Below are positions 6,568-30,150 of a DNA stretch of 39,343 nt, piece after piece; the first letter of the stretch is position 1, and each line of letters starts with the position of its first letter. Below the pieces are notes generated by a model. That model ran no database searches and was not told where the DNA came from. It saw only the letters and a list, made by a program, of their open reading frames with translations. Origin of the DNA: Bacteriovoracaceae bacterium (GTDB taxonomy: Bacteria; Bdellovibrionota; Bacteriovoracia; Bacteriovoracales; Bacteriovoracaceae); contig JAFMBV010000025.1 of assembly GCA_017858255.1 (NCBI GenBank), positions 1 through 39,343 on the forward strand, read 5' to 3'. The position numbers and the translations under genes were made by a program.

Positions 6568-6595
6568 GGGATTAGGTCTATTTAAGCCTAATCCC
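6568..6595. terminator. Bidirectional hairpin between convergent genes
   Basis: A perfect 9-bp inverted repeat, GGGATTAGG / CCTAATCCC, with a 10-base loop, flanked by AATCAG and CTGATT that could extend the stem. It lies between the DJ-1 stop and the end of the transaminase gene; one arm and the stop codon of the transaminase gene are part of it. No strong T-run on either side. Confidence 0.55.
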
Positions 6596-7714
6596 TGATT
6601 GTTCGATATATTCGCTAATAAGATCAAGAAATAGCTGAATGTCTTCACTACCTAACTGACCAATATTAGAAATTCTAAAAGAGTTCTTCTCATCAACCTT
6701 TCCAGGATAAATGGTGATCCCCCTTTGGTAGAGATAATTATGCATACTCTCGAAGTTATAATTCTTATCTATTGGTTCAAGAAATGTTGTCAAGATTCGA
6801 GAGTTCTCTTTTTCTTCTAATAAAGGAGTGAAGCCAAAAGCACACATTCCTTCATGCATTTTCTCATACAGACCTGAATATTTTGCTGCTCTGGCCTCTA
6901 TACCACCATCTTCAAAAAATTCATCAAATGCTTCATTTAGGGCGTAGAGAGTTTGAACTGGAGGAGTAAATAAGAATTGGTTCTTTTCCTTTTGTGAAAG
7001 AAAGTTAGCGTAAAGATCAAAGTAAAAACTTTTCTTCTTAAACCCTTTAATTCTTTCTAGCTCTGATGCTTTAGCAATGACGATACCAAGGCCTGCCATT
7101 CCCTGAATGCACTTATTCGATGATGAAATCAGATAATCAACATCGTCTTTTACAAGATCAATATTAATTCCAGCATAGGAAGACATCGCATCGATTAGAG
7201 ATACCATTTTATATTTATCGCTAATGCTCTTGAACTCACTTATTGAATTTAAAATTCCTGTCGTGGTTTCATGATGAACAAAGGCCAAGACTTTAAATTT
7301 ACTACTATTTTTTGACAAGAATTGATCCACTTCCTTCCAATCAATTACCTGACCCCATTCAAAACGAATAACTTGTGAAAAAACGCCCAGATTATCGCAA
7401 ATCTGCTTCATTCTTTTTCCATAAGCTCCATTTTCAATAATCAAAACACCGTCATCTGTATTCGTGCAAGAACTCAAGCAAGATTCGATGGCTCCCGTCC
7501 CTGCACAGCCTAGTAATATACCTTCATAATTAGAATCAGCATTTACGACTTTCTTTACCTTTTCTCTTACATCGGAAAGTAGATCACCAAACTCTTTTTC
7601 TCTGGGGCAAATATCTTCAGTAACAAGTGCACTCTTAACCCTTGCTGAAGTTGTAGCAGGCCCTGGATTTAATAGAATTTTCCTTTCAATAGTCTTATTA
7701 ATTACTTCTTTCAT
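6578..7714 (-). CDS. phnW: 2-aminoethylphosphonate transaminase (PhnW-type)
   Basis: A 378-residue fold-type I PLP enzyme. Visible landmarks are the N-terminal LLNPGPATTS, the cofactor loop AGTGAIES (71-78), Asp175 in SLIDAMSS that contacts the PLP ring nitrogen, and Lys201 in SSSNKCIQG, the Schiff-base lysine. In biosynthesis the enzyme aminates phosphonoacetaldehyde to 2-aminoethylphosphonate. Placed last in the operon, directly behind the decarboxylase that makes its substrate, with a 17-base overlap, it fits the synthetic direction rather than degradation; no phosphonatase gene is present. AGGGAAATTA precedes the ATG. The final codons lie inside a terminator-like hairpin. Confidence 0.9.
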   Translation of the reverse strand: MKEVINKTIERKILLNPGPATTSARVKSALVTEDICPREKEFGDLLSDVREKVKKVVNADSNYEGILLGCAGTGAIESCLSSCTNTDDGVLIIENGAYGKRMKQICDNLGVFSQVIRFEWGQVIDWKEVDQFLSKNSSKFKVLAFVHHETTTGILNSISEFKSISDKYKMVSLIDAMSSYAGINIDLVKDDVDYLISSSNKCIQGMAGLGIVIAKASELERIKGFKKKSFYFDLYANFLSQKEKNQFLFTPPVQTLYALNEAFDEFFEDGGIEARAAKYSGLYEKMHEGMCAFGFTPLLEEKENSRILTTFLEPIDKNYNFESMHNYLYQRGITIYPGKVDEKNSFRISNIGQLGSEDIQLFLDLISEYIEQSGIRLK

Positions 7715-8867
7715 TAATTTCCCTAATATATTCTTTCATTCTCATGGCGACTTGCTCAGGAGTCACAGTTGGGCGTCCCAAATCTTTTGGAGACCCTGCT
7801 TTGATAACAAATCGAACAAAACTTAGCCCACCATTTTCAAGAATATTTTCAAGTGCTACTTCAAAAGATTCTATCGAATCAACTTCATAGATAATTTCAT
7901 AACCGCAAGAACGAGCAATACCACAAAAGTCTATTGACTCAGAAAAAGTTCTTTGACCACCTGTTGAATCATGGACGCCATTATCTAATAAAATATGTAT
8001 TAAATTAATAGGGCCCATCTGCCCCGCCAAGGCCATATTCCCTAATTTCATAAGAATGGCGCCATCACCGTCTATTACAACAATTTTCTCTTTAAATTCA
8101 GTTCGGCTCAACCCAAGAGCAATAGCTACAGCACAACCCATTGAACCAACCATATAGAGATTGTTTGGAGAATCTTCAATTTCAAAAAGCTCTCTTCCAG
8201 TCTTCCCAGTTGTGGCAATGAACATATCTTCCTTGCTTAACTTTCCTTTAAGAGACTTAATGGCCTCTGTTCGAGTGATCATCCCTTCTCTATTTAACAG
8301 TCTATTAATTTGAGTGCGATGTGGATCAATTAGCCGATCAACATGAGTACTCTTTAACTCATAGGAATCCACGCTTCCCTTTTTCATAACGAAGAAGAAA
8401 GCACGCCCCTGTTCTTCACAAATTTTATCAGCACGAGAAAATGCTTCCTTTACCTCTTCTGCTTCAGTTGGAAAGAACGCCCATGGTATTTTCATGAGAT
8501 CAAGAAGCTCTGTTGTTATTTCCCCCATAAGCTCGTGCTGAGGTTCATCACTTGCTCCATTCGGTTCTCCCCTTAACGTAACGATCCCTATGAAAGAAAT
8601 TTTCATGGTGTAGCTAAGAGAAGTTAAAGGGTTGACCGCATTCCCTAACCCAGAGTTCTGGAACATAACAATAGACTTTCTTCCACCAAGCCATGCTCCA
8701 CAAGCGAGAGCAACGGCCCCACCTTCATTTGTCGTTTCAACAAATTCAAGATCGATATCGTCAATAACGTAATTGATAAAGGGTTTTAAGTAAGAACACG
8801 GAGTCCCTGTAAACAGGGTGTAACCGTTTTCTTTGCATTCATTTAGAAACACACTTGAGTTTATCAT
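7698..8867 (-). CDS. ppd: Phosphonopyruvate decarboxylase
   Basis: A 389-residue thiamine-diphosphate enzyme. The N-terminal domain carries the cofactor-activating Glu48 in TTNEGGAVALACG and the QNSGLGN motif (70-76). The C-terminal domain has the Mg-TPP motif beginning with VIDGDGAI (Asp266, Asp268) and ending with LLDNGVHDS (Asn296). Both are typical of phosphonopyruvate decarboxylase, which drives the unfavourable PEP mutase reaction forward by converting phosphonopyruvate to phosphonoacetaldehyde. It begins 3 bases after the PEP mutase gene and overlaps phnW, so the three enzymes of AEP synthesis are translationally coupled. Length is usual for the family. Confidence 0.92.
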   Translation of the reverse strand: MINSSVFLNECKENGYTLFTGTPCSYLKPFINYVIDDIDLEFVETTNEGGAVALACGAWLGGRKSIVMFQNSGLGNAVNPLTSLSYTMKISFIGIVTLRGEPNGASDEPQHELMGEITTELLDLMKIPWAFFPTEAEEVKEAFSRADKICEEQGRAFFFVMKKGSVDSYELKSTHVDRLIDPHRTQINRLLNREGMITRTEAIKSLKGKLSKEDMFIATTGKTGRELFEIEDSPNNLYMVGSMGCAVAIALGLSRTEFKEKIVVIDGDGAILMKLGNMALAGQMGPINLIHILLDNGVHDSTGGQRTFSESIDFCGIARSCGYEIIYEVDSIESFEVALENILENGGLSFVRFVIKAGSPKDLGRPTVTPEQVAMRMKEYIREINERSN

Positions 8868-8870
8868 TAT

Positions 8871-10481
8871 CTAAAATACCTGTATCTTTTCATAATCTTT
8901 AAAATTATCAACATCCATCCAGTTACCTTCAATATAGGAAACACCAATTTCAATATCCTTTTTAATCAGATAGTTAATCATGTCTCCCATCTTCATCTCA
9001 CCAAAGCCATCTTTTAGAGAAAGATCTATCAGAGCCTTTTTCAAAATTTCGGAACCCTTAGCTGATGTCCTTACAAGTCCTATCCACTCACCATGCGGCG
9101 TTTCTTCTGACTCATCTCTTTGCTGGAGCATTGTCTTAAGTACCAGTGCAGACTCTTCACCAAATACCTTTGTGTTTTCTCTATTGCAAAAAACAAAGTC
9201 ACCTACATACTGAGAGTCTCGGTTTGACATCTTACTATCCACAACGATCATAATGTCTCTCGGACTTTCTTCCATCATATTTAGGATGTAACTCTTAAAA
9301 ATTATATCGCCATAACCAATAGTGAGATTACCCTCGATATGATCTTTTGCTTTAAAAAGTGACGCTAACTCTCCAGTTGTAGAGTAATCGTCATTATCAA
9401 TATAGTTGCACCCTAGTTCAGGAAAACTTTCTTTCTTATAGCCTCTGACGACATTAATTTCTTCAACACCAAAATTCCTAAGTTTATCAATGGTCTGTTT
9501 CAAAATTGGTTGGCCGTTAACATTTAACAAGGCCTTAGGTTTATTGGCGGTTAGTTCACCGAGTTCTTTTCCTCTACTTGCAGCTAAGATGATCGCCTTC
9601 TTTTCGCCATTCTTATGAAAATAAAGTTTTTCTGCTTCGGCAAGTTCTTGATCATTTTGTAATCTGAAGACTTCCTTTACGGGTACAATATTGTCTTCAA
9701 CATTCATCAGGTTTTGATCAATAAATATTTGCTTTGCCGTTTCCTGCATGGCCTTTACTGATGAGCGCATTAAGTGGTTGGCCCAAATAGCAGTAGATAT
9801 GCCGCGTTTTTTGAACTCTTCAGTTGGCGTTGAATAATACTTAGTGGGTACAATCACAACAGGACAACGATCGCCCCATTCCTTCATGAAACTAAAGATA
9901 TCATCTGGTGTGCTCTTCTTACTGTGCATAAGAATGGCAGTAGCCCCTGCATTTCGATAGGCCTCAGCTCTTTTTAAAGCTTCTTCTAAACCCCAACCAG
10001 CAATAAAAGCTTCTACTCTTGCGACAATACAAAAGTCATCATCAGTACGAGCATCGAGACCCGCCTTAATTTTCCCACTAAACTCTTCTATATCAGCTAA
10101 TGGTTGTTTTTCGCCCCTTAAGAAACTATTTGTTTTAGGAAATATTTTATCCTCAATACAAACACCGGCCACGCCTCTCTGCTCCAGTTTTTTGACTAAT
10201 CTTCTCATATTATTGAAGTTTCCATAGCCAGTATCACCATCTAGAAGAATAGGAACCGTCGTTGCATCACTCATAAACTCAACTGTCTCTAAGACCTGAG
10301 TCCATGAAGCCTCATTATTATCTCTCACACCCATTGCCGCACTAATGGAAAGACCACTGCCCCATATACCTTGAAAACCAGCTTCTTCAGCAATCTTTGC
10401 AGATAATCCATTATGAGCTTCCATCAGATACGCTAGCTCTTTACTTTGGATCATTTGTTTTAACACTGTTGTCTTTTTCAT
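8871..10481 (-). CDS. pepM: PEP mutase fused to nucleotidyltransferase
   Basis: A 536-residue two-domain protein. Residues 1-~285 are phosphoenolpyruvate mutase of the isocitrate lyase superfamily, with the metal motif [10 protein letters not shown] (Asp81, Asp83) and the diagnostic EDK-X5-NS signature at 110-119 ([10 protein letters not shown]) that separates true mutases from related lyases. Residues ~293-536 are a nucleotidyltransferase of the sugar-phosphate/LicC type ([28 protein letters not shown], and [12 protein letters not shown] near the end). The mutase makes the C-P bond; the fused domain probably activates a phosphonate with CTP, as shown for PntC-type CTP:AEP cytidylyltransferases. 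AAGGAAAGAGC precedes the ATG. The loop AASRG departs from the usual AAGxG. Confidence 0.93.
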
Positions 10482-10495
10482 GCTCTTTCCTTTCT

Positions 10496-11113
10496 TTAGT
10501 ACAGGCGATATCCCATAAAGAGACTTAACCCAATCATGAGCCCGCCACTTATCCTGCTAAAATAATTTAAATATTTATTTCTAATCGCTTCTTTAAATCG
10601 ATCGACTACTTTAATGAGAAAAACAAACCACAAAAACGAACCAATACCTAAGCCAATGGAAATTAAAATGATATTTAACTGATTAAAGACAAAGAGCTCT
10701 AAGCTTTTCACGAAGGCACCAAGACCCGTCATGGTTAGAACGAGAGCGGGGTTGGAGGTATAAATAACGATTCCCAACAAGATTCCTTTTGCGACACCTT
10801 GTGGAGTTTCTCTTTTTGTAGTTTCTTGAATTTGACTATTCTTGCTCAGAAGTTCTTTTAACCCTAAGAGAAAAATAATAACTATTCCTGCGGCTTTCAT
10901 TATAAAGGTAATTTTCTGGTCTATCTCTATAAGAGAAAGACCAGAGAGAATGATAAAGAAATAAATAACATCCATTAGCGAGCCACCAAAAGCTATCGAC
11001 AAGGCCCTCGCTGCACTTTTCTTTAGGTGAGTATTAATAACCCACACATTTATTGGACCAATAGGAATACACATCAAAAAACCAATGAATAGGCCGATTG
11101 TAAATGCGATCAT
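10496..11113 (-). CDS. LysE/RhtB-type membrane exporter
   Basis: A 205-residue, roughly six-helix membrane protein. The ATG at 11113 is chosen because it overlaps the stop of the preceding gene as ATGA and gives the family's normal N-terminus, a first helix followed by [14 protein letters not shown], the conserved Gly-Pro signature of LysE exporters. A longer frame to 11278 lies inside the upstream gene in another frame and is not needed. The family exports amino acids and small zwitterions. Inside a phosphonate operon it could export AEP or a derivative, or balance an intermediate; this is inference. 14 bases separate it from pepM. Confidence 0.75.
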
Positions 11114-11976
11114 TTTACGCCATCCACTGAGACGTTGACCCCGATCTGAATCATACTGACAAAGGCCAACCATAAATTTGACAGAACTATGGCAAAGAAA
11201 AAATATAACATTACATGTTGAGTTATCAGAGCAAGGGAGAGAAGCATTAAATGGGTTGAACCAGAAGTAATTCCCCACATGGGAAGAATTGACTTATTAT
11301 ATTTAAGATACTTTCCGACTTTAAAAGTAGACATACTCTTCGGGTTCTTTTGTGCCCGGCTAAATACCAAGAATAACCAAATGAGCAATCTCTCGAAATA
11401 ACTCCCACCTTCTTTATTTAACTTTTCTAGATCCCGTCTGTACTTTTCAATTTCTCTTATTCGGCCTTGCGGATTATTTTCTAAATAAAAGAGAAATTGT
11501 TTCTTATAGAAACTATAGATACTTGCATGAACAAGAATAAAAACTGCTGAAACGATGGCGAAGTAGTGTATTGGAAAAAAGTCATTTCCCTTACTTAACC
11601 CAATACTTAGACCTACGTAAAAACATATACTCGCCAAGAAATCCACAAACATATCAACGAGTTGCCCGTACTTACTCCCATTCTTCTTCATTCTAGCCAG
11701 CATTCCATCACAGCAATCTAAAACACTGAAAATAAATATTCCGACGCCTGCGTAGGCAAAACCTTTTGGCGTACCCGTCGTTAAAAAATAACCACTAATG
11801 ATCGCAATGATTAAAGCTACAATAGAAAAGTGGTCTGGTCTTAGGAAAGACCAGTTCGCCACCTTTAAAATAAGGAAGGCCAATGGTCTAAAGACGAAGA
11901 AGTCGAAAGGTTCTTCTAACTGAAGTTCTTTACTATTTCTCTTATATTCAGAGTAAAAGTTTGATGTCATATCCAT
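11110..11976 (-). CDS. CDP-alcohol phosphatidyltransferase family, phosphonolipid head-group transferase candidate
   Basis: A 288-residue integral membrane enzyme. The complete catalytic signature is visible from LDCCDGMLAR through GQLVDMFVD: D-xx-DG-xx-AR-x8-G-xxx-D-xxx-D (Asp87, Asp90, Gly91, Ala94, Arg95, Gly104, Asp108, Asp112), with about six hydrophobic helices. The ATG at 11976 is preferred over an in-frame TTG at 11988; GAGGA precedes it and it starts one base after the previous stop. The family swaps CMP from a CDP-alcohol for another hydroxyl. Next to two cytidylyltransferases and the AEP pathway, the donor is likely CDP-AEP or its hydroxylated form, and the acceptor a diacylglycerol or ceramide. 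The acceptor is not shown by sequence. Confidence 0.85.
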   Translation of the reverse strand: MDMTSNFYSEYKRNSKELQLEEPFDFFVFRPLAFLILKVANWSFLRPDHFSIVALIIAIISGYFLTTGTPKGFAYAGVGIFIFSVLDCCDGMLARMKKNGSKYGQLVDMFVDFLASICFYVGLSIGLSKGNDFFPIHYFAIVSAVFILVHASIYSFYKKQFLFYLENNPQGRIREIEKYRRDLEKLNKEGGSYFERLLIWLFLVFSRAQKNPKSMSTFKVGKYLKYNKSILPMWGITSGSTHLMLLSLALITQHVMLYFFFAIVLSNLWLAFVSMIQIGVNVSVDGVK

Positions 11977-11977
11977 G

Positions 11978-12736
11978 CTATTCCTCAAACATTATTTGAG
12001 CTTCTTTAAAATCTTCTGGTGTGTCTATCTCCATCCATTTTCCAGCAAGAAACTTATGAACGCCTACTTCATTTAATAGTAAGAATTCATTTAGAAGATG
12101 CTCCCAATTCAGGGATAAATTTTCAGGTTTTGATAGGAAGACTGAGGCCAAATCGGCTAAACGAGAAGTGTGCTCTTTATTAAACTTTAAAATTCCAATG
12201 GCCTCACCTGCGAAAGTGAACTTTTCAAGTTCCACTTTTGAGACTTCCCTTTTATCAATTGTCATGCGAGCAAAACCACTTGAATCAATCATTGTTTTTG
12301 CACATTCGACATCAGAAAGACTGCCTTCTCCCACGAGTATTTCACTCGATTTCTTTTTATTTAAAAACTCTTCTAGAATACATTGCTCGTAGACCAGGTC
12401 TGCATCAAAGATTAGACAAGAGTCTTCAATTTCTTTTATTCCCAGATATAGAGAAAATGTATTTCCATGATTTTTGTAGTCTTCATTTAAATAAAAAGAA
12501 AAATCGAAGTCATCAGTGTATTTCTGTGCAATATCTTGAATTAGCTCTTTTTTGTAACCTAGTACTAAATTAACCTTCTTAATTCCTAGATTTTTCCAAA
12601 TAGTGAAACTCCTCTCTAGCAGAGTTTTTCCCTCTAGTTCTAAGAGGCACTTTGGTCTATTTGTCATGTCACTAATTCTAGAACCATAACCAGCGGCCAA
12701 GACAACAGCTGTATACTCGCTATTATTAATCATCAT
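11978..12736 (-). CDS. Stand-alone nucleotidyltransferase, CTP:phosphonate or phosphocholine type
   Basis: A 252-residue nucleotidyltransferase. The nucleotide loop is VVLAAGYGSR (Arg20) followed by RPKCLLEL (Lys29); the metal-binding acid pair is FDADL (Asp111, Asp113) and a second metal acid lies in WMEIDTPEDF near the C-terminus. The layout resembles LicC-like CTP:phosphocholine cytidylyltransferases. It is directly followed by the CDP-alcohol transferase, so it is the natural supplier of the CDP-activated head group. It is not a simple duplicate of the domain fused to PEP mutase: the two differ in the glycine loop. Which of them takes AEP and which a hydroxylated or other substrate cannot be decided from sequence. 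Overlaps the dioxygenase gene by 11 bases. Confidence 0.85.
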   Translation of the reverse strand: MMINNSEYTAVVLAAGYGSRISDMTNRPKCLLELEGKTLLERSFTIWKNLGIKKVNLVLGYKKELIQDIAQKYTDDFDFSFYLNEDYKNHGNTFSLYLGIKEIEDSCLIFDADLVYEQCILEEFLNKKKSSEILVGEGSLSDVECAKTMIDSSGFARMTIDKREVSKVELEKFTFAGEAIGILKFNKEHTSRLADLASVFLSKPENLSLNWEHLLNEFLLLNEVGVHKFLAGKWMEIDTPEDFKEAQIMFEE

Positions 12737-13643
12737 TTGCCCCCTTCCTTACCCATAATCTCTCCATCGTTCTCTTTAGCGTTTTGCCTTTTCCTTTTTC
12801 GTAATCTTCAAGGGAAACGGCTTCGATGGCATCCGAAAAACAAGTTCTTCCGTGAAGGACTTGGGCATCTTTAGTGAGAAGAATGTCGGCCTTTTTCATG
12901 CGATAACGAACTTGAAACTCAGAACTATTTGTTAAAGCATCGAGTACATCAATAGCGTAGAGTTGCTCGTCTTTAAGAGGTTCCCCTGCTTTTTGATGGG
13001 CCGATTCCATATAAGGTCTAAGGTGACGAAAAAGAGGCTCGCCTTCTTCATTATAGGTAATTATTGGTGCACGATATAACTCATCTGCAACACCTCTCAT
13101 CTCCCAAACAAAGGGTAATTCCAATTCTTTTAGAGCATTTGGGTAAGAGGCCTTTAACTCTTGATGAACTCTCAGTCCATCAACAAGGATATTTTCTCCC
13201 CCGGCCAAGGCCGGAGAAACACAACTCATATACAAATAGTCCCAAGGTTCAGGGACGTTGACGTTGTCGGTATGAATACTCCCACCTTCTCTCGTCTGGT
13301 GGTAACGGGCCCCTTGAAACATCGAGCCTAAACGGTCGCGATCATAAACAGAGATAACTTTATGTCCCTGATCATTTTGAACTAATAACTCACCAAATAT
13401 TTCTCCAATAAGGGGATTAAGCCGGTGAATTTCACTAAATGAAAAATACTTCCCATCGCCGTTATCAAGCTCAATTACGATGGTACGAAAATCTTCTTTA
13501 ATCATTTGAACGAATGGCTCAAAAATCCCCCGGGGAAAATTTTCAGTCTGTGAATTAAGGAACTCTCTCAGTTGCCCCCTTGCGCCATCACTAATACTTA
13601 CCTTGTGAAAGAAAGAGGTTTTTAGTTGTTCTTCAGTATTCAT
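12726..13643 (-). CDS. Fe(II)/2-oxoglutarate dioxygenase (TauD-like), candidate AEP C1-hydroxylase
   Basis: A 305-residue protein of the TauD/TfdA-like jelly-roll dioxygenases. The iron-binding facial triad is visible as His124-x-Asp126 in GSIHTDNVN and the distal His264 in VLHGRTCF; Arg291 or Arg295 in KRTMERLWVR is placed to bind the 2-oxoglutarate carboxylate. Relatives include PhnY, which hydroxylates AEP at C1 to give 1-hydroxy-AEP. As first gene of the phosphonate operon it probably tailors AEP, CDP-AEP or the finished lipid rather than breaking it down, because no PhnZ-type oxygenase follows. AAAGGA precedes the ATG. Substrate assignment is inference from context. Confidence 0.8.
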   Translation of the reverse strand: MNTEEQLKTSFFHKVSISDGARGQLREFLNSQTENFPRGIFEPFVQMIKEDFRTIVIELDNGDGKYFSFSEIHRLNPLIGEIFGELLVQNDQGHKVISVYDRDRLGSMFQGARYHQTREGGSIHTDNVNVPEPWDYLYMSCVSPALAGGENILVDGLRVHQELKASYPNALKELELPFVWEMRGVADELYRAPIITYNEEGEPLFRHLRPYMESAHQKAGEPLKDEQLYAIDVLDALTNSSEFQVRYRMKKADILLTKDAQVLHGRTCFSDAIEAVSLEDYEKGKGKTLKRTMERLWVRKGANDD

Positions 13644-13738: not shown

Positions 13739-14281
13739 GTGACAAATGCACCAAGAAGTTATCATAAAGAAAAACTGACACTTACCTACTTACTTACATC
13801 GATATTTCTAATTATCTTAGTCGACATAACCTTCTATTTTCTGGAAGGTCATCCCTTAAAGGACATGGTTTTAGACCTATTACTAGAAGGATCTCTTCTT
13901 CTTCTTGTTCTCTTTACAGCTAATTACGTCTGGAAAAAATTTACATTTGAAATGGAGACCAATCATTCAATTGCTAAAGACCTTCTGAAAACTAAAGAAA
14001 GCGCCAATCTTTGGGAGAGGAAATCAAAAGATTTCGTAATAGAGTTTCAAGCCCATGTAACTATTCAATTTAATGAGTGGAACCTATCAAAGAGCGAGAA
14101 AGCAGTTGCGTTATTTGTTCTTCAAGGCAAGAGCTCAAAAGAAATATCAAGTATAAGGTTCACCTCAGAGAGAACCATCAGAAATCAATGCCATTCAATA
14201 TATGAAAAATCTGGCTTAGGTGGAAAGAGCGAACTCTCTGCCTATTTTTTAAACGAACTAATCGGCGACTATTTAGTCTAA
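13739..14281 (+). CDS. Membrane-anchored LuxR-type HTH regulator
   Basis: A 180-residue protein with two transmembrane segments (about 14-35 and 44-64), a linker, and a C-terminal LuxR/GerE-type helix-turn-helix at about 115-165 (NLSKSEKAVALFVLQGKSSKEI, then SERTIRNQCHSIYEKSGL). The turn and recognition-helix pattern matches the family. Translation appears to start at GTG; there is no good Shine-Dalgarno and no nearby in-frame ATG, so the start is uncertain. It lacks a receiver or autoinducer domain. Placed head-to-head with the phosphonate operon, it is a candidate regulator of it, perhaps sensing a membrane state; this is inference. Confidence 0.7.
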   Translation: MTNAPRSYHKEKLTLTYLLTSIFLIILVDITFYFLEGHPLKDMVLDLLLEGSLLLLVLFTANYVWKKFTFEMETNHSIAKDLLKTKESANLWERKSKDFVIEFQAHVTIQFNEWNLSKSEKAVALFVLQGKSSKEISSIRFTSERTIRNQCHSIYEKSGLGGKSELSAYFLNELIGDYLV

Positions 14282-17854: not shown

Positions 17855-19336
<1,482 letters not shown>

Positions 19337-19337
19337 A

Positions 19338-19742
19338 ATGATGAAAACGTCGATGACTCTTAAAATTCTTATCCCAACTGGAATATTTCTTGAACAAAGT
19401 GAAATTCTTTCCATTGTTGCCGATGGCAAAAGTGGTTCATTCGGTCTCTTGCCCCATAGACTCGACTGTGTCGCCGTCCTTATACCTGGGATTCTAACTT
19501 ATAGAATCGAAAAAGGTATGGATATCTATGTTGCTATTGATGAAGGCACGCTCGTTAAGACTGGTAAGACTGTAGCAATTTCAGTGCGAAATGCAATCGG
19601 AGGACCGGATCTAAATAACCTCAAACATACTGTTGAAGAAGAATTCATAAAGATCAACGAAGAAGAGAGAGGCCTTCGTCTTGCTATAGCAAAACTTGAA
19701 AGTAGTTTTGTCCAAAAATTTACGGAGATGCATCATGAATAA
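19338..19742 (+). CDS. atpC: N-ATPase epsilon subunit
   Basis: A 134-residue epsilon-type subunit. The N-terminal beta-sandwich is recognisable (LKILIPTGIFLE, then GSFGLLPHRLDCVAVLIPGIL), and a helical C-terminal tail follows (about 95-134). It couples the central stalk to the c-ring and in related enzymes restrains ATP hydrolysis. It starts one base after the beta stop codon and overlaps atpQ by 8 bases. Confidence 0.92.
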   Translation: MMKTSMTLKILIPTGIFLEQSEILSIVADGKSGSFGLLPHRLDCVAVLIPGILTYRIEKGMDIYVAIDEGTLVKTGKTVAISVRNAIGGPDLNNLKHTVEEEFIKINEEERGLRLAIAKLESSFVQKFTEMHHE

Positions 19743-20043
19743 AAAAAAGGCTCCCCCTAATTTCGTCCAAAAAATCGGTACAGAATCTGTGAAAAAGATC
19801 AAATCGAAAAAGAAGCATGAAAGTACTTGGTTTGGTTTAGGCATGATGGGTCTCATTGGTTGGTCGGTGGTTGTACCGACATTACTTGGTGCAGCTCTAG
19901 GTATTTGGTTAGATAAGCGAACGACAGTTAGTTTCTCATGGACCTTGACCTTACTTGTTGTTGGCCTCTGTATCGGTTGCTTAAATGCTTGGCACTGGAT
20001 GAGTAAACAGCACAAAGATATGCAGGAGGATGAAAATGATTGA
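19735..20043 (+). CDS. atpQ: AtpQ (AtpI-like) subunit of N-ATPase
   Basis: A 102-residue protein with a Lys-rich N-terminus and two transmembrane helices (GMMGLIGWSVVVPTLLGAAL, then a second starting near TLTLLVVGLCIGCLNAWHW), the AtpI-type pattern. AtpI-like proteins help assemble the c-ring or supply ions; in N-ATPase operons this gene is called atpQ. The ATG at 19735 follows ACGGAG and overlaps the epsilon stop; the longer frame from 19696 lies within epsilon. Confidence 0.88.
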   Translation: MNKKKAPPNFVQKIGTESVKKIKSKKKHESTWFGLGMMGLIGWSVVVPTLLGAALGIWLDKRTTVSFSWTLTLLVVGLCIGCLNAWHWMSKQHKDMQEDEND

Positions 20044-20338
20044 AAACATAGATATCATAATCATTCTTATCGTTGGAATATTACTCGGAACATTCTTTTA
20101 CTCTGGTCTTTGGTGGACTGTTGATCAAGCAAGAAATTTACCTGTGCCTCTTTTTATGTTTTTAGTAAGTTTTCTCCTTAGAGTTAGTGTGACCCTAATT
20201 GGTTTTTATCAACTGATTAAAAGTTACCCTGAGGAACAAGGAATGAGCATCGCGATCTGTCTCTTTGGTTTTTGGACAGCAAAATTTCTTATCACAAGTG
20301 TCGTTCATCTCAAGAAGGGGCGAAAGGATGCAACTTAG
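20036..20338 (+). CDS. atpR: AtpR subunit of N-ATPase
   Basis: A 100-residue membrane protein with three hydrophobic segments, the AtpR protein found only in N-ATPase operons. Its segment PVPLFMFLVSFLLRVSV carries the intramembrane Arg thought to interact with the carboxylates of c subunits during ring assembly. The ATG at 20036 sits 6 bases behind GGAGG; the ATG at 20030 overlaps that site. It overlaps atpQ and atpB. Confidence 0.88.
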   Translation: MIENIDIIIILIVGILLGTFFYSGLWWTVDQARNLPVPLFMFLVSFLLRVSVTLIGFYQLIKSYPEEQGMSIAICLFGFWTAKFLITSVVHLKKGRKDAT

Positions 20339-21035
20339 TCCCGATAGTATTATTTACTGGCAAAGTGGTCCTTGGAAAATCAATTCGACTATACTAACGA
20401 CTTGGGCATTGATATTTTTTCTGACATTAAGTTCAAAATTAATAGCTAGAAAAATGTCCGCGGGTATTGAGCGTTCTCGTTGGCAGAATCTTTTAGAAAT
20501 TATCGTCTCTAATATTGAAAAACAAATTGTAGATGTAGGACTGAGTGAACCACGTAAGTATCTTGGATTTTTAGGGACAATATTTCTTTTTATCGCCACA
20601 GCGAGTGTTTGTACGATTATCCCAGGATATGAAACGCCAACTGGCTCCTTATCAACAACAACCGCCTTAGCTTTATGCGTATTTTTCGCTGTTCCCTTTT
20701 TTGGAATCAATGAAATTGGTCTGAGTAGTTATTTGCGCTCCTATATGAGACCAACATTTATCATGCTGCCTTTTAATATTATAAGTGAAGTCTCTAGAAC
20801 CTTAGCGCTCGCCATCCGTCTCTTTGGTAATATGATGAGCGGAACATTAATCATTGCTATCTTAGTCTCTGTTACGCCTTTGTTATTTCCTATTATTATG
20901 AGGGCACTTGGACTACTCACAGGAATGGTTCAAGCCTATATTTTTACTGTTTTAGCTGCTGTTTACATTGCTGCGGCCACCAGAGTGATAAAACCACAAC
21001 CTCCCCTAATCCCCATTAAAAAGGAAAATATATGA
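20328..21035 (+). CDS. atpB: N-ATPase a subunit
   Basis: A 235-residue membrane a subunit, the ion channel half of the motor. The essential Arg is visible in LALAIRLFGNMMSG, and the following helices end with TGMVQAYIFTVLAAVYIA, the conserved C-terminal half-channel helix. The ATG at 20328 lies inside the end of atpR and gives the usual short N-terminus; GGGGCGAAAGG precedes it. It overlaps atpE by four bases (ATGA). Confidence 0.94.
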   Translation: MQLSPDSIIYWQSGPWKINSTILTTWALIFFLTLSSKLIARKMSAGIERSRWQNLLEIIVSNIEKQIVDVGLSEPRKYLGFLGTIFLFIATASVCTIIPGYETPTGSLSTTTALALCVFFAVPFFGINEIGLSSYLRSYMRPTFIMLPFNIISEVSRTLALAIRLFGNMMSGTLIIAILVSVTPLLFPIIMRALGLLTGMVQAYIFTVLAAVYIAAATRVIKPQPPLIPIKKENI

Positions 21036-21313
21036 GCAGTTCGACAATTATCGCTGTGGTATCAATTTTGATCGCAGGAATTTCAACAAGTTTTGGCGCC
21101 ATAGGCCCAGCTCTTGCGGAGGGAAGGGCCGTTGCGGCCGCCCTTCAGTCCTTAGCCCAGCAACCTGATGCCTCAACAACAATTACGCGAACCTTATTTG
21201 TAGGTCTTGCAATGATTGAATCTACCGCGATCTATTGCTTGGTGGTTTCAATGATTTTAATTTTTGCCAATCCATTTTGGAATCACTTTATCGCAGAAAA
21301 TATAGGGAAGTGA
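21032..21313 (+). CDS. atpE: N-ATPase c subunit with two carboxylates
   Basis: A 93-residue hairpin of two helices, the c-ring protomer. Helix 1 contains Glu30 in GPALAEGRA, the position filled by Gln in classical Na+ F-ATPases; helix 2 contains Glu63-Ser64-Thr65 and Tyr68 in AMIESTAIY, the residues that bind Na+ in the Ilyobacter-type ring. Two facing carboxylates are a known feature of N-ATPase and some fusobacterial rings. Ser/Thr/Tyr suggest Na+ binding, but a two-carboxylate N-ATPase ring has been reported to move H+, so the ion is not settled by sequence. Confidence 0.95.
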   Translation: MSSSTIIAVVSILIAGISTSFGAIGPALAEGRAVAAALQSLAQQPDASTTITRTLFVGLAMIESTAIYCLVVSMILIFANPFWNHFIAENIGK

Positions 21314-21317
21314 AATT

Positions 21318-22094
21318 ATGCTCATAGACTGGTTTACTGTCCTAGCACAGGTCACGAATTTCCTTATTCTCATATTCCTCTTAAAGCGATTTCTTTATGA
21401 ACCAATACTTAATGCTATTGATAAGCGGGAAGAGTTAATAGCCAAAAGAATTTCTGACGCTAAAGAAATGGAGGATGAAGCAAAGATGATTGGAAAAGCA
21501 CTTAAAGATAAGATTGAGGATTATGACAAGCACAGCACGGATCGTGAGAGGGAATTGAATGAAAAATTAAAGCTCGAAAGTGAACGTATGCGAGAGAAAG
21601 CAAGAATAGCGGCCGTTAAACTAAGCGAAAAGTGGCATAAAAACCTCGAAGAAGAGGCCTTCCATTTAAACCAAGTGATCGTTAAGCGTACACAATCAGA
21701 AGTTATCGCTCTCACGAGAAAAACTCTTAGTGACCTTGCTGGCACAGAGCTAGAAGACCGGATGATTGAAGTATTTGTTAAAAGATTAAAAGGAATGGAT
21801 CAGAATAGGAGGGAAAACTTAAAATCAATATTACAGGCCTCTCAAAATAAAATCACTATTAATAGTTCATTTGAAATTTCAAATACCCAAATCGAAACCA
21901 TAAAAAGCACAGTAACCAAACTTGTCAATACACAAATCGAAGTCCAAGTGGAAGTGGTGCAAAACCTCACAAGTGGTATCGAGTTGATTATGAATGGGCA
22001 AAAGATTGCATGGAGTATAGAAAACTATTTGGTCTCAGTTGAAGAGCGCTTTCAAAAAACTTTACAAGATAACATTAAAGGCAAGATAGGCTAA
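21318..22094 (+). CDS. atpF: N-ATPase b subunit with delta-like extension
   Basis: A 258-residue protein, about 100 residues longer than ordinary b subunits. Residues 1-25 form the membrane helix ([20 protein letters not shown]), followed by the [15 protein letters not shown] junction and a long charged coiled-coil to about 140. The remainder, including the terminal [19 protein letters not shown], has the look of the C-terminal domain of delta (compare the family pattern of a hydrophobic strand, a Gly turn and a short helix). No separate atpH exists in the operon, so this fusion probably supplies the peripheral-stalk cap. Confidence 0.9.
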
Positions 22095-22105
22095 AAAAGG
22101 GCACC

Positions 22106-23638
22106 TTGAAAGAAGAAGCAAATTATTTAAAAAATTCTCTTGATCTAGCATTTACTTATCTCGGTGATATTCGAGAGGACTTTTTGCCAGAACTAGACTT
22201 CAAGGAAGTCGGTAAAATTACAAGTATAGCGGTAAGTGTGGCGAAGGTTTCGGGTCTTCCAGGAGTTGGATTCGACGAACTCCTCTCCTTTCCAGGGGGA
22301 GTTCAAGGCATCGTATTTAATGTGGATGCTGACGAAGTTGGGGTGGTTTTATTAAGTGATTACTGGCGCCTAAAAGCAGGAGACGAAGTACGACGCACGG
22401 GCCGTGTGATGGATATTCTTGTAGGAGAGAAATTATTAGGAAGAGTTCTCGATCCTCTGGGTCGTCCCCTAGATAACAGAGGGCCATTAAAAGTAAGTCA
22501 TCGTTTACCAGTTGAAAGACCAGCACCTCCTATCATGAACCGCTCCCCTGTCACAGAACCCCTTCAAACTGGTATTAAAGTTATAGATGCCCTTATCCCA
22601 ATAGGTCGTGGCCAACGTGAATTAATCTTAGGTGATCGCCAAACTGGAAAAACAACCATTGCCATTGACACGATTCTTAATCAACGTGATCAAAATATAC
22701 TTTGTATTTATTGCGCTATCGGACAGCGTGCTTCAGCGACGGCCAAAGTGGTGGCAACTTTAAAAGAAAAGGGTGCTATGGAGTATACAGTTGTCATTGT
22801 AACAGAAGGCAACGACTCACCAGGGCTAACTTATGTTGCCCCCTATGCAGCAACCTCCATTGCAGAATTTTATATGGAGCAGGGTCGCGATGTATTGATT
22901 GTTTATGACGATCTTACCCATCATGCCCGCGCCTATAGGGAACTATCGTTACTACTAAGAAGGCCCCCAGGACGAGAGGCGTTCCCAGGAGATATTTTCT
23001 ATATTCATTCCAGACTTTTAGAAAGAGCAACTCACCTTAGTGAAGATCTTGGCGGGGGCTCTCTCTCTGCCCTGCCGATTATAGAAACTGAGGTCCAGAA
23101 TATATCTGCCTATATCCCTACAAATCTTATTTCTATAACTGATGGCCAAATATATCTCTCCCCCTCTCTCTTTGAATTGGGCGTTCTCCCAGCGATAGAT
23201 TTTGGAAAGTCCGTTTCAAGAGTCGGTGGAAAAGCACAGCGTAGGGCCTATCGTGATGTAACAGGTGATCTCAAACTGGCCTATGCTCAGTATGAAGAGC
23301 TGGAGACTTTTGCTCGTTTTGGAGCGCGATTAGACGAAGAGACAAAGAATATTATTAATCATGGGAAAAAAATTCGTATTTGCCTTAATCAAAATGAATT
23401 TTCTCCTGTTAATATATTTGCCCAAATTGTTTTACTCATGGCCTTAAAGAAAAAACTCTTAGACAGAGTTCCTCAAGCTCAAATGGAAGAGGCGAAAAGT
23501 TTACTACTCGATGCCTCAAAAGATACACCGGACGAAATACAAAAACTATTTATTAATGATCAGGTGTTGAGTCTTGATCAACAAAAGGTGATCACTGATC
23601 TAATTAAAGAGTCGCTAGCGCCTTTATTAAAAGATTAA
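22106..23638 (+). CDS. atpA: N-ATPase alpha subunit
   Basis: A 510-residue alpha subunit. Walker A is GDRQTGKTT; the arginine finger region follows [10 protein letters not shown], and YCAIGQRAS and [18 protein letters not shown] complete the nucleotide-binding core. It forms the non-catalytic sites of the hexamer and offers the Arg finger to beta. Translation starts at TTG behind AGGG, 11 bases after the atpF stop. Length is normal. Confidence 0.95.
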
Positions 23639-23657
23639 AAGAAAAAGGAGTGAGCTA

Positions 23658-24557
23658 ATGCCCATGACAATGGCCAATCTACAAAAGAAAATGGGCATAG
23701 CAAATGACCTTCAATCTGTCGTTCGAACAATGAAGGCGATTTCGGCATCTAGTATTGCAGAATATGAAAAATCATTAAATGCCTTAACTGAGTACTTCCA
23801 ATCAGTAGAGCTTGCATTGGGAGCGTGTTTTCGCAAAGACCTACAATCTCAAAAGAACCTATTTATTATTGATGATAGAGAAAAAGAAAAAAACATTGTA
23901 AATATTGTCGTCTTTGGCTCTGACCAAGGTTTAGTGGGAAAGTTTAACGATGTAATAGCTCAGTTCGCTCTAAAAGAAATGGAAGTAATTCCTAATCCTA
24001 TTCGAATCTATTGTGTTGGAGAGCGTGTTCAAAGTCGTCTTATCGATATGGACCAGACTATTGAACAGGTTTTTTTACTTCCAACTTCTGTTAAGGCGAT
24101 TACCCCACTTATAGGCCAGATACTTTTAGAAACTATTTCAAATACTGAGAATATGGAAGAGTCCACCCTTTACTTAATTTATAACGAAAGGAAAGCTGGT
24201 GCCTTATATGAATCAGTTATCAAAACCATTCTTCCTCTTAATCAAGCTTGGCAACAAAAGATCACAAGGAGTCCCTGGCCTAGTAATCAATTGGCCGAAA
24301 TTATAGGAGATGGTAGGTCTACCTTAGTTGTACTTCTGCGGGAGTATCTCTTTGTTTCTCTCTTTAGAGCGTGTACAGAATCCTTGGCAAGTGAAAATGT
24401 GAGCCGACTGGCCGCGATGCAAAGAGCTGATCAGAATATTGTCGAAGTACTTGAAAGTATGAATGCTACCTTTCATCAATTGCGCCAAGCTGGTATCGAT
24501 GAAGAGTTATTCGATGTTATCTCTGGATTTGAAGCTATATCCAAAGATCTTACTTAA
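23658..24557 (+). CDS. atpG: N-ATPase gamma subunit
   Basis: A 299-residue gamma subunit, the rotor shaft. The N-terminal helix with MKAISASSI and the C-terminal helix with ENVSRLAAMQRADQNI match the two ends that form the coiled-coil inside the alpha-beta ring; the middle SDQGLVGKFND is the conserved Rossmann-like start. AAAAGGAGTG precedes the ATG. It closes the nine-gene operon. Confidence 0.94.
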   Translation: MPMTMANLQKKMGIANDLQSVVRTMKAISASSIAEYEKSLNALTEYFQSVELALGACFRKDLQSQKNLFIIDDREKEKNIVNIVVFGSDQGLVGKFNDVIAQFALKEMEVIPNPIRIYCVGERVQSRLIDMDQTIEQVFLLPTSVKAITPLIGQILLETISNTENMEESTLYLIYNERKAGALYESVIKTILPLNQAWQQKITRSPWPSNQLAEIIGDGRSTLVVLLREYLFVSLFRACTESLASENVSRLAAMQRADQNIVEVLESMNATFHQLRQAGIDEELFDVISGFEAISKDLT

Positions 24558-26481: not shown

Positions 26482-29400
26482 TTATTTTTTAAGAATGGCC
26501 TCTTCTATTAATTTAAGACGCTCTTCAAGATTTTGTACTTTTTCTTTAAGAGCGGTATTTTCTTCTTTCAACGACGCGATCTCGCGAGAATTTTCCTCTA
26601 CTTTTACTTCTAGGCCTCTAAACCTCTCAAACATCGCCACATTCTCATTCACTTGATCACCAAAGAGAAGATCAAGCTCCTTAATTGAATTAAGCATGGT
26701 CCAAAAAATAGCATCACTTTGAAGCTGAAGATAACCGCTGTCCATCATCGTTACCGCTTCAGGAACAACCTTCTCCACTTCCTGAGCGACAAAGCCCACT
26801 TGCTCTTCAGTGTCTTTTATTCCGAGAGGGTTATCTTCATTGTAATGAAAGAAGACAGGATCAAGTTCCCTTACAGAAGCGAGACCTCTTTCAAATTTTC
26901 TCGTAACCGTTTTTAACCTTGCATCGGAGAAAACCGCCCAAGCCGTCCCGCCAGTTTTTGAAGCGTTACCATTAACACTTAACTTTTGGTCTGGACTAGT
27001 AGTACCAATGCCGACATTTCCACCAGGCTCAATATTAAGTTGAGTCGCCACACCTGTCTCAGTTATTTGAAAAGAACCATCTCCCTGAGAGCCAAGGTGC
27101 CACCTTTCGCCATCGCCATTTGCAAACAATAGAAGTGATGGTTGATTTGCCGCAGTTTCCCGGGATAGTTTAAGAAGATACGGGTTACTTCCTTCTATAT
27201 GTAGTCTGTGAGTTGCAGCAGGTGCGACACCGATTCCTACGTTTCCATTTTCTTTTACTGTCATGGCCGAGCTGTATGTCCAAAGGCCATCATTAGAGAG
27301 AAAACCAAAGTCGATTTGACCAGCACTTCCGTCGTGAGCAATACCATAGAGGTTTGTTTCATAACTGGCCCCAGTCATATCAACCCCAAGACCCATATGG
27401 GAGTCCCCTTGGTTCCAAAAAATAAAGCGCTGCTGATCTTCTGGATTTCCCGTTAGAATAGAGACGTCAGAACCAAGGTCTAACTGAGCTTCAGGACTAC
27501 CAGTAGTCACGCCGACACGACCAGCTGCAGTCACCCTCATTCTCTCAAGAGCATTCGTGGAGAACTCCAAAGTATTTGAACCAGAGCTGTAAATCCCTGT
27601 ATCAAGATCATTACTAAATGAATAAGAAGGGCTCGCTGCAGTTATTCCCGCATGTGTTAGTCTATAGGAGCCTGCAGTTTCACTTTGTAGTTTTACATTA
27701 TCAATGGAAAGTCTAGTCAGGTTGTTCGTTTCAATATTTATAGCTTGATTATCATTAGTACCAATAGCTATTGGCGCTCCCGTAGTGTTTCCTCCATCGA
27801 GAATATCTCCAGTATCTGTTGCCGCTGTTTTACAAGTACCATCTCCATCAAGATACTCACCAGCAGAACAAAGTGTTCCTGCATTGGTATTAGTATCCGT
27901 CGTTTTAGCTCCACAAACCCAACGAGAGTTCGTGTTATCCCATTCTAAAACTTCCGTATCTGCACAAGCGACATTATTCGGTTGATACCCAAAATAAAGA
28001 CCAGCACCATTAGCAATAAGATCAACTCCAACTGAATTAACCACGAGGTTAATATCATCAGTATTTTGAGTCAGAGTTAGTGAAGAATCACTTGAAGCAA
28101 GAGACCTAAAGTTAAGTTGAGTCGTTGTCTTATCTTTAAAAACTTGAGAACCGGCCCCTGTGTTAGCAGCCGTATTGGTTTCTCCACTACCAGAAACGGC
28201 AGCAGATAAACACCCGGAACCATCAATACATATGTCGTTTCCTGTGGTGACATTAATGTTTCCTGCAACAGTAAGTTTTTGAGTTGGGGCCGTAGTACCA
28301 ATCCCTAAATTCCCACTGTTGTTCATTGTCATTAACTGAGTATCGTTATTCGACCAATTAAATAAGTTTGCTGCTGAAACAGCACCACCAGATTCGGTGA
28401 CATTAAACTGCATAACAGCATCACTTACCTGACTTGCAGTATTTAATGTTTCCGCATGGATGATACCGCCAACGCCTCGAGTGCCACTAATATTATTTGC
28501 ACCTATCATTTTAAATAACGGAACCCGATGATTATCACTTCTACTTGAGTTAAAATTGAAAAGTACTGCATCTGAGCTGGCAAGATTTAAAATATCTCCC
28601 CCATCCCCGGGCAATTTCGCTTCTATTTGAGCACTAGGATTAGTCGTTCCTACCCCTAAAAGTCCTCCACTTGTGACCCGCATAACTTCACTACCGTTAT
28701 AATTTATACTTAGCGGAATAACAGTTGTTGGTCCGGCAAGAGCATCAATATAAGCACCAAAGCTTGTAGATCCAAAGACCATTTCGTTTCGGGCCAAAAG
28801 AGCTGTTGAAACAGCAGTCATATTTGTTCCACTCGAGGTTGCTGTGGCCAGTACTCCAGCGACAGGAGAGCTTAAAGATGGATGGTTATTTGTTGCAGCA
28901 GAATTAACGACAACATGTCCTTGAACGCCAACAGCTAATCTACTGCTTGAACCCATGGTAGTGGTACCGTAGACACCATAATTTGGCCCTCCTCCTCCAC
29001 CTCCACCTTCGGCGTATACTCCATAACGAGAGGTAGCATTATTATTAGCAGGAGCATCAATAAAGGCACCATAAAAAGGGCCAACTTGTCCACCAGACAC
29101 TCCCCCTCCTGTAACCTCTAGAACCTTATTATTTGTAAAACCATTGCTAACAATCCTTGCTCGAGAGGTACCAGGACTAGTCGTCCCAATACCAACATTT
29201 CCAGTATTGTAGTAAATATCAGAACCCGTTGTTGTCCACTGCGATGATGTAATAGCTCCAGTCGCAGTATCTACATAAGTTTTCACTGCATTCTGAGAAG
29301 GAACCATGGTATCACTTGTGCCAAGAGTGTTGGTTGTATCAAGTGTCAGTGTTGTGTCGACTGTTTTTGCCCCACACTCCCACCGAAAGTTGGTGGCATC

Positions 29401-30150
29401 GTACTGAAGGACTTGATCCTCAGTACAGGCAACATTATTTGGTCGGTAATCTAAATAAAGACCAGCACCGTTAGCAATAAGATCAACCCCAACAGAGTTC
29501 ACAGCAAAATTAATATCATCAGTGTTTTGAGTGAGGGTTAAAGAGGAATCACTTGATGTGAGAGATCTAAAGTTAAGTTGAGTCGTTGTCTTGTCTTTAA
29601 AAATTTGAGAACCAGCCCCTGAGTTAGCAGCGGTATTAGTTTCTCCACTACCGGAAACAGCAGCAGATAAACATCCAGAACCATCAATACAAATATCGTT
29701 TCCTGTGGTGACATTGATGTTACCTGCAACAGTTAATTTTTGAGTAGGATTGGTTATACCAATTCCGACATTACCACCAACTTCCATAAATAGCGGAGGT
29801 GTCGTTCCTGTTGAATCCTCATAAAAGCAAAAGCCTTCATTAGTGCTAGAGGACATAAACCAGTTTTTATCATCATCCTGAAATCTCAAGGCCACATTAT
29901 CTGAGGCCGTATCTGCAATATGAAGGCGAACAGAGGGATTGCTTGTTCCTATCCCCACATTTCCTTGAGGTATGATCAAGATATTCCCAGTACCATCACC
30001 ACCGTTTACATTTGCCTTGATCTCTAAATTTCCGGTAGCACCATAGTGAGTAAGGTTGGCATAATCTTGATTTTGATAATCACCATCGTCACCATTTAAA
30101 ACAAGTGTCGATCGACCCGTATTATTTGTGTTTTCACCAATAATCATCAA
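26482..30150 (-). CDS. Mosaic fibre protein, 3' part, with S74 self-cleaving chaperone
   Basis: The 3' segment (1222 residues from the first internal ATG) of a large fibre gene; the frame is open upstream of that ATG to about 30344 and joins the 5' part by a frameshift near 30325. It consists of repeated phage-tail-fibre modules with many NVGIGT-type turns. At residue 1075 SDARLK begins an S74 intramolecular chaperone, followed by FHYNEDN, QVGFVAQEVEKV and a C-terminal coiled coil (about 1165-1222). The Ser and the Lys five residues on match the Ser-Lys cleavage pair of endosialidase-type chaperones, which fold trimers and then release themselves. Such fibres in Bdellovibrio (MAT proteins) bind prey. 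Not clearly expressible alone. Confidence 0.8.
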   Translation of the reverse strand: MMIIGENTNNTGRSTLVLNGDDGDYQNQDYANLTHYGATGNLEIKANVNGGDGTGNILIIPQGNVGIGTSNPSVRLHIADTASDNVALRFQDDDKNWFMSSSTNEGFCFYEDSTGTTPPLFMEVGGNVGIGITNPTQKLTVAGNINVTTGNDICIDGSGCLSAAVSGSGETNTAANSGAGSQIFKDKTTTQLNFRSLTSSDSSLTLTQNTDDINFAVNSVGVDLIANGAGLYLDYRPNNVACTEDQVLQYDATNFRWECGAKTVDTTLTLDTTNTLGTSDTMVPSQNAVKTYVDTATGAITSSQWTTTGSDIYYNTGNVGIGTTSPGTSRARIVSNGFTNNKVLEVTGGGVSGGQVGPFYGAFIDAPANNNATSRYGVYAEGGGGGGGPNYGVYGTTTMGSSSRLAVGVQGHVVVNSAATNNHPSLSSPVAGVLATATSSGTNMTAVSTALLARNEMVFGSTSFGAYIDALAGPTTVIPLSINYNGSEVMRVTSGGLLGVGTTNPSAQIEAKLPGDGGDILNLASSDAVLFNFNSSRSDNHRVPLFKMIGANNISGTRGVGGIIHAETLNTASQVSDAVMQFNVTESGGAVSAANLFNWSNNDTQLMTMNNSGNLGIGTTAPTQKLTVAGNINVTTGNDICIDGSGCLSAAVSGSGETNTAANTGAGSQVFKDKTTTQLNFRSLASSDSSLTLTQNTDDINLVVNSVGVDLIANGAGLYFGYQPNNVACADTEVLEWDNTNSRWVCGAKTTDTNTNAGTLCSAGEYLDGDGTCKTAATDTGDILDGGNTTGAPIAIGTNDNQAINIETNNLTRLSIDNVKLQSETAGSYRLTHAGITAASPSYSFSNDLDTGIYSSGSNTLEFSTNALERMRVTAAGRVGVTTGSPEAQLDLGSDVSILTGNPEDQQRFIFWNQGDSHMGLGVDMTGASYETNLYGIAHDGSAGQIDFGFLSNDGLWTYSSAMTVKENGNVGIGVAPAATHRLHIEGSNPYLLKLSRETAANQPSLLLFANGDGERWHLGSQGDGSFQITETGVATQLNIEPGGNVGIGTTSPDQKLSVNGNASKTGGTAWAVFSDARLKTVTRKFERGLASVRELDPVFFHYNEDNPLGIKDTEEQVGFVAQEVEKVVPEAVTMMDSGYLQLQSDAIFWTMLNSIKELDLLFGDQVNENVAMFERFRGLEVKVEENSREIASLKEENTALKEKVQNLEERLKLIEEAILKK
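27895..28310 (-). repeat. Fibre gene long repeat, copy B
   Basis: About 415 bases encoding a module that runs from QKLTVAGNINVTTGND to the CGAKT ending, near-identical in protein to the copy at 29355-29765. It is a duplicated fibre segment within one gene; differences are scattered single substitutions. Confidence 0.75.
29199..29382 (-). repeat. Fibre gene second repeat, downstream copy
   Basis: Encodes a module containing TLTLDTTNTLG, VPSQNAVKTYVD and DIYYNTG, repeated at 30478-30662 with strong nucleotide similarity, including a long exact run around the TTNTLG codons. Confidence 0.7.
29355..29765 (-). repeat. Fibre gene long repeat, copy A
   Basis: Partner of the copy at 27895-28310, in the same orientation. 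Both encode GNDICIDGSGCLSAAVSGSG and the following ~100 residues with few changes. Recombination between them would delete about 1.46 kb, close to a multiple of three. Confidence 0.75.

Follow-up and report, generated by a model that had tools for sequence, protein, structure and literature searches.

Candidate genes for a hydroxylated aminoethylphosphonate sphingolipid in a seven-gene operon of a Bacteriovoracaceae genome

Bacteriovorax stolpii, which is classed in the Bacteriovoracaceae, contains a sphingophosphonolipid with a 1-hydroxy-2-aminoethylphosphonate head group, according to passages of PMC8154272 and PMC12366243 that cite Watanabe 2001 and to a passage of PMC6148460. These passages bear out what the first-pass annotation of the DNA described here had stated about this chemistry. 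Conjugates of 1-hydroxy-2-aminoethylphosphonate (HAEP; AEP, 2-aminoethylphosphonate) were postulated earlier from the genomes of other bacteria (Yu 2013 and Bartlett 2017, via passages of PMC8154272 and PMC12366243). The annotation had called the genetic basis of such lipids not well established. That stands insofar as the literature searched (Yu 2013 and Bartlett 2017 apart) yielded no genes assigned to the B. stolpii lipid, but it has to be qualified by the genomic postulates mentioned in those same passages. AEP cytidylyltransferase activity has been demonstrated in vitro for PntC-AEPT of T. denticola (PMC6697681), and the gene set spt, bcerS and cerR is known in Caulobacter (PMC11087976). 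HAEP-ceramide, the fusion of PEP mutase to a nucleotidyltransferase (PepM-NT), PntC and the genomic postulates of HAEP conjugates are already known. A sphingolipid with a C–P bond has been known chemically in bacteria since 2001, and the operon described here offers candidate genes for such a lipid.

The window is a stretch of 39,343 nucleotides from the genome of a predatory-type bacterium of the Bacteriovoracaceae (contig JAFMBV010000025.1). At 6578–13643 it contains an operon of seven genes, all on the minus strand, in the order tauD-like dioxygenase, nucleotidyltransferase (NT), CDP-alcohol phosphotransferase (CDP-OH), lysE, pepM-NT fusion, ppd and phnW. The genes named by the first-pass annotation are all present where it placed them, on one strand, and its claim of junctions that overlap or lie 1–14 bases apart agrees with the ORF coordinates, in which every junction is an overlap or a gap of at most 14 bp. 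Overlaps join tauD to NT (11 bp), CDP-OH to lysE (4 bp, with the lysE start at 11113) and ppd to phnW (17 bp); the gaps are 1 bp between NT and CDP-OH, if the latter starts at the ATG at 11976, 14 bp between lysE and pepM, and 3 bp between pepM and ppd. The lysE gene probably starts at the ATG at 11113 rather than at the GTG at 11278 of the mechanical ORF list. Many Bacteriovoracaceae have this gene set as well, so the grouping is not due to chance. We consider it fairly probable that this operon makes a hydroxylated AEP head group and attaches it to a lipid of the membrane, with ceramide as the most likely acceptor.

Two features of the surroundings are missing from the first-pass annotation. 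A terminator-like hairpin with a 10-pair stem, identified by consensus match only, is located at the 3′ end of the operon (6568–6595), between it and a convergent DJ-1 gene. Upstream, a divergent gene on the plus strand (13739–14281) encodes a LuxR/GerE-type DNA-binding protein (PF00196) with a hydrophobic N-terminal half, a candidate regulator whose homologues occupy the same position in two further genomes (G001 and G077; 41–42% identity). A promoter scan retrieved no more sites than were found in shuffled sequence. Elsewhere in the window, we noted by reading a second-type F-ATPase-like cluster at 17867–24557 (beta, a, b, alpha and gamma subunits), possibly an N-ATPase, and at 26482–30150 a very long repetitive protein with a C-terminal domain resembling the chaperone of endosialidase (S74).

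The first-pass annotation claimed a complete AEP pathway, and all three enzymes score above their curated equivalog cut-offs: PepM (8871–10481, minus strand) with 400.6 bits against TIGR02320 (cut-off 319.6), the phosphonopyruvate decarboxylase Ppd (7698–8867, minus strand) with 408.5 bits against TIGR03297 (cut-off 312.5) and the PhnW/AepZ-type 2-aminoethylphosphonate transaminase (6578–7714, minus strand) with 380.8 bits against TIGR03301 (cut-off 360.8). The PEP mutase motif EDK-x5-NS is likewise intact, as claimed, and residues 1–291 of PepM score 467 bits against 1m1b, the solved PEP mutase of Mytilus. By established family chemistry, PepM would convert PEP to phosphonopyruvate, Ppd would decarboxylate this to phosphonoacetaldehyde and PhnW would transaminate the latter to AEP. 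A catabolic reading of the operon was set aside, pepM together with ppd being biosynthetic. The pepM gene also carries a fused C-terminal NT domain of the PF12804 type, not mentioned in the earlier annotation, so the operon encodes two NT domains. Such a double arrangement is not unusual, since clusters in which a fused NT accompanies a separate one have already been described (PMC6697681).

The stand-alone NT (11978–12736, minus strand; PF12804, NTP_transf_3) has T. denticola PntC-AEPT (6pd1) as its best solved relative, followed by LicC (1jyk). Its linkage to pepM and its nearest relative fit PntC, a LicC-like NT with a preference for AEP, and the protein is a proposed CTP:AEP/HAEP cytidylyltransferase. 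Going by this relative, the enzyme would combine AEP or HAEP with CTP to give CMP-(H)AEP. It shares the pattern ECAK...DKR...GEA.GI with other tauD-linked NTs. Strict specificity of the NT for the product of the dioxygenase is a weakened proposal, as a related NT occurs in a genome without tauD in its operon (G290).

The first gene of the operon (12726–13643, minus strand) encodes a TauD-family Fe(II)/2-oxoglutarate dioxygenase of 305 aa, for which PF02668 (TauD, 74 bits) is the only Pfam match. Residues H124, D126, H264, R266 and R291, including those of the HxD...H motif, are invariant in 19 homologues. Its best sequence match in the PDB is the phosphonate hydroxylase FrbJ, with a weaker match to TmpA (2-trimethylaminoethylphosphonate dioxygenase). 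It cannot be filed as TmpA, because it scores 46.7 bits against the TmpA equivalog NF049936, far below the cut-off of 400. The predicted model (pLDDT 82) has the right fold class; its best fold match is TtnM, which is not a phosphonate enzyme. Several genomes of genus g4 additionally encode a second, solitary tauD homologue with 46–49% identity, away from any phosphonate gene (L151:8242-9183, L152:8742-9692).

Wherever a locus extends far enough to show the gene order, tauD is followed directly by the NT gene. The named-genome scan detected the same pair in four SAR11 single-cell genomes (L138, L139, L140 and L141), in which no SPT was found, although these genomes are small (0.7–1.0 Mb) and may be incomplete. 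The PepM of L138 has another cytidylyltransferase domain, PF01467, as its fusion partner, so the tauD-NT pair is found alongside more than one kind of PepM and in differing surroundings. In L138 and L140, pepM lies near the pair, and L138 also has sugar-polymer-like genes, with genes for a TylF-type methyltransferase and a CDP-OH protein among them. Given that the pair is also present in SAR11 genomes with no SPT match, the substrate hydroxylated by the dioxygenase is most likely the phosphonate rather than ceramide. The enzyme would convert AEP to HAEP, with the hydroxyl probably at C1; we infer both this position and the order of hydroxylation and activation. We tentatively suggest, at somewhat less than even odds, that tauD-NT is a mobile two-gene module for AEP hydroxylation and activation, serving a ceramide pathway in Bacteriovoracaceae and in the unrelated genome UBA2778, and another acceptor in SAR11. 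If this is true, the makers of hydroxy-AEP conjugates would include some abundant marine plankton alongside predators.

Alternatively, the dioxygenase could act on the sphingoid base, an acyl chain or another non-phosphonate substrate, leaving a plain AEP head group. TauD enzymes are diverse, and the pepM operons of two genomes (G290 and G317) lack tauD while keeping most of the other genes; these operons would be predicted to yield unhydroxylated head groups. Nevertheless, the constant order of tauD and NT, which extends to SAR11, the position of FrbJ as the nearest sequence relative, and the location of the hydroxyl on the phosphonate in the B. stolpii lipid (in the passage of PMC8154272) make a non-phosphonate substrate improbable.

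Transfer of the head group is assigned to the CDP-OH protein (11110–11976, minus strand; PF01066, above the cut-off), a proposed CMP-(H)AEP:ceramide transferase. Enzymes of this kind transfer a group onto an alcohol from a donor activated with CDP, and a phosphonolipid calls for such a step. The complete motif claimed in the first-pass annotation is indeed present (DCCDGMLARMKKNGSKYGQLVDMFVD): it follows D-x2-DG-x2-AR-x8-G-x3-D-x3-D, and 20 homologues show no variation in its catalytic columns. The nearest solved relatives are AF2299, CEPT1 and CPT1, and the predicted model (pLDDT 91) matches AF2299 best, with a Foldseek probability of 1.00. By analogy with choline/ethanolaminephosphotransferases, the enzyme would transfer the phosphonate from CMP to the primary hydroxyl of ceramide and release CMP. 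A CDP-OH paralogue with 48% identity and no Pfam match is encoded elsewhere in the same genome (L042:175-1032, contig C35), and its motif is broken, GDTLEEMKS replacing CDGMLARMK. In genome G061, where neither a PepM nor a TauD match was found, a PntC-PhnW fusion is convergent to lysE and CDP-OH genes (L047:6993-8846, 8815-10364).

The adjacent LysE-family membrane protein (10496–11113, minus strand; PF01810, 62 bits) is a possible exporter. It does not appear to be strictly needed, since lysE is absent from the operon of G113.

Ceramide as the acceptor was assumed in the earlier annotation and now has genomic support from four sides. First, contig C134 of the same genome carries consecutive genes for an SPT-like protein, a GNAT protein (bCerS-like) and an epimerase-type reductase (CerR-like), the latter two assigned by position and family, and a fatty acid hydroxylase gene lies nearby. 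This cluster would be the source of ceramide. SPT is the top family for the first of these proteins, whose score of 489 bits does not reach the equivalog cut-off of 640. Second, PepM was detected in 22 of the 369 genomes of the phylum, and all 22 carriers encode SPT, vs 177 of 369 overall. The Fisher p values of 5e-8 (phylum) and 3e-6 (within the family) overstate the case, because relatedness is uncorrected; SPT is also common in the phylum. Third, tauD, NT, CDP-OH, lysE and pepM occur together in UBA2778, recorded as Methylococcaceae, at a locus with 55% G+C and gammaproteobacterial lptF/lptG-like neighbours (judged by reading); its SPT is above the NF047599 cut-off and adjoins a CerR-like gene. 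Fourth, the pepM operon of G016 lacks the CDP-OH gene, and the sole CDP-OH match of that genome follows a second bCerS-like GNAT gene at a distance of 18 bp and precedes a gene for a PF08557 protein (sphingolipid delta-4-desaturase domain, above the gathering score). Of the four observations, this arrangement ties the transferase to sphingolipids most specifically.

These observations also bear on the possibility that the acceptor is diacylglycerol and the product a glycerophosphonolipid, with use of ceramide absent or minor. The nearest solved relatives act in glycerolipid synthesis or CDP-alcohol transfer, and the SAR11 clusters combine tauD-NT with CDP-OH genes in genomes with no SPT match, so the wider CDP-OH family may use other acceptors. 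However, the SAR11 CDP-OH proteins are distant (only 19% identical), and the complete co-occurrence of pepM with SPT, the SPT of the unrelated carrier UBA2778 and the relocation of the CDP-OH gene beside ceramide-type genes in G016 all argue against diacylglycerol, which we regard as an unlikely main acceptor. In some relatives that encode SPT, we noted by reading a separate cluster of inositol-phosphate synthase, NT, distant CDP-OH and HAD genes (L056:5496-9760, L057:5537-9751, L155:5442-9680), which may represent a route to inositol sphingolipids.

Cell surfaces, including their glycans, are where most bacterial AEP ends up (PMC6697681), and the phosphonate could be placed on a glycan or surface polymer, with a polyprenyl-type or sugar acceptor for the CDP-OH enzyme. 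In one member of the same family (G053), polysaccharide-type genes surround a pepM operon that lacks CDP-OH, suggesting that glycan-type phosphonates may also occur in the family. Yet that operon differs from the present one precisely by the absence of CDP-OH, lysE and tauD. A search of the window's own genome (G000) detected no LicD family gene, and there is no recognised glycosyltransferase in or beside the operon. A glycan product is thus very improbable here, and a lipid, most likely a ceramide, remains the preferred acceptor.

The lipid reading of the first-pass annotation is upheld in part: AEP synthesis, CTP activation and CDP-OH transfer fit well-matched families, whereas the lipid product, ceramide as its acceptor and the hydroxyl at C1 are predictions. 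The trait is patchy, as no PepM match was found in the six genomes searched from the window's own genus. B. stolpii was not among the operon matches of the named-genome scan, which may omit genomes close to the window's own, and a cultured, sequenced carrier was identified in Bacteriovorax sp. BSW11_IV, a strain known in the literature (PMC4511183). The points weighed against the preferred reading are the SPT score below the cut-off, the failure of the dioxygenase against the TmpA profile, its fold match to TtnM, the SAR11 CDP-OH genes without SPT, the patchy distribution and the lack of a B. stolpii match. Each step of the proposed pathway has a candidate enzyme, among them a ceramide phosphonotransferase and an AEP hydroxylase, and a cultured carrier can be named. 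The operon may also help to explain the source of the hydroxy-AEP consumed by phosphonate-degrading bacteria.

Compared with described systems, the operon shares with the Pnt clusters (Rice et al. 2019, PMC6697681) a PepM fused to a PF12804 domain with a second NT nearby, the characterised T. denticola enzyme being the best solved relative of that NT; unlike them, it adds a TauD dioxygenase, and CDP-OH replaces LicD or glycosyltransferases. TmpA and FrbJ have the same TauD-type Fe(II)/2-oxoglutarate fold and act on phosphonates, whereas the operon dioxygenase sits in a lipid-type biosynthetic operon and scores far below the TmpA cut-off. The eukaryotic choline/ethanolaminephosphotransferases CEPT1 and CPT1 belong to the same superfamily as the CDP-OH protein, have the same motif and use a lipid alcohol as acceptor for a head group activated with CDP, but their similarity to it is low (E 7e-5 and weaker); here the donor would be a CMP-phosphonate and the acceptor probably ceramide. 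The phosphosphingolipid pathway of Caulobacter (PMC11324152) has a core of spt, ceramide synthase and cerR type, which the spt-like, bcerS-like and cerR-like genes of this genome resemble, and differs in that its head group is added via ceramide kinase, whereas here it would come from an activated phosphonate. The HAEP sphingophosphonolipid of B. stolpii is known from chemistry only; B. stolpii and the present genome belong to the same family, and the head group and ceramide reported for that lipid agree with the product predicted here.
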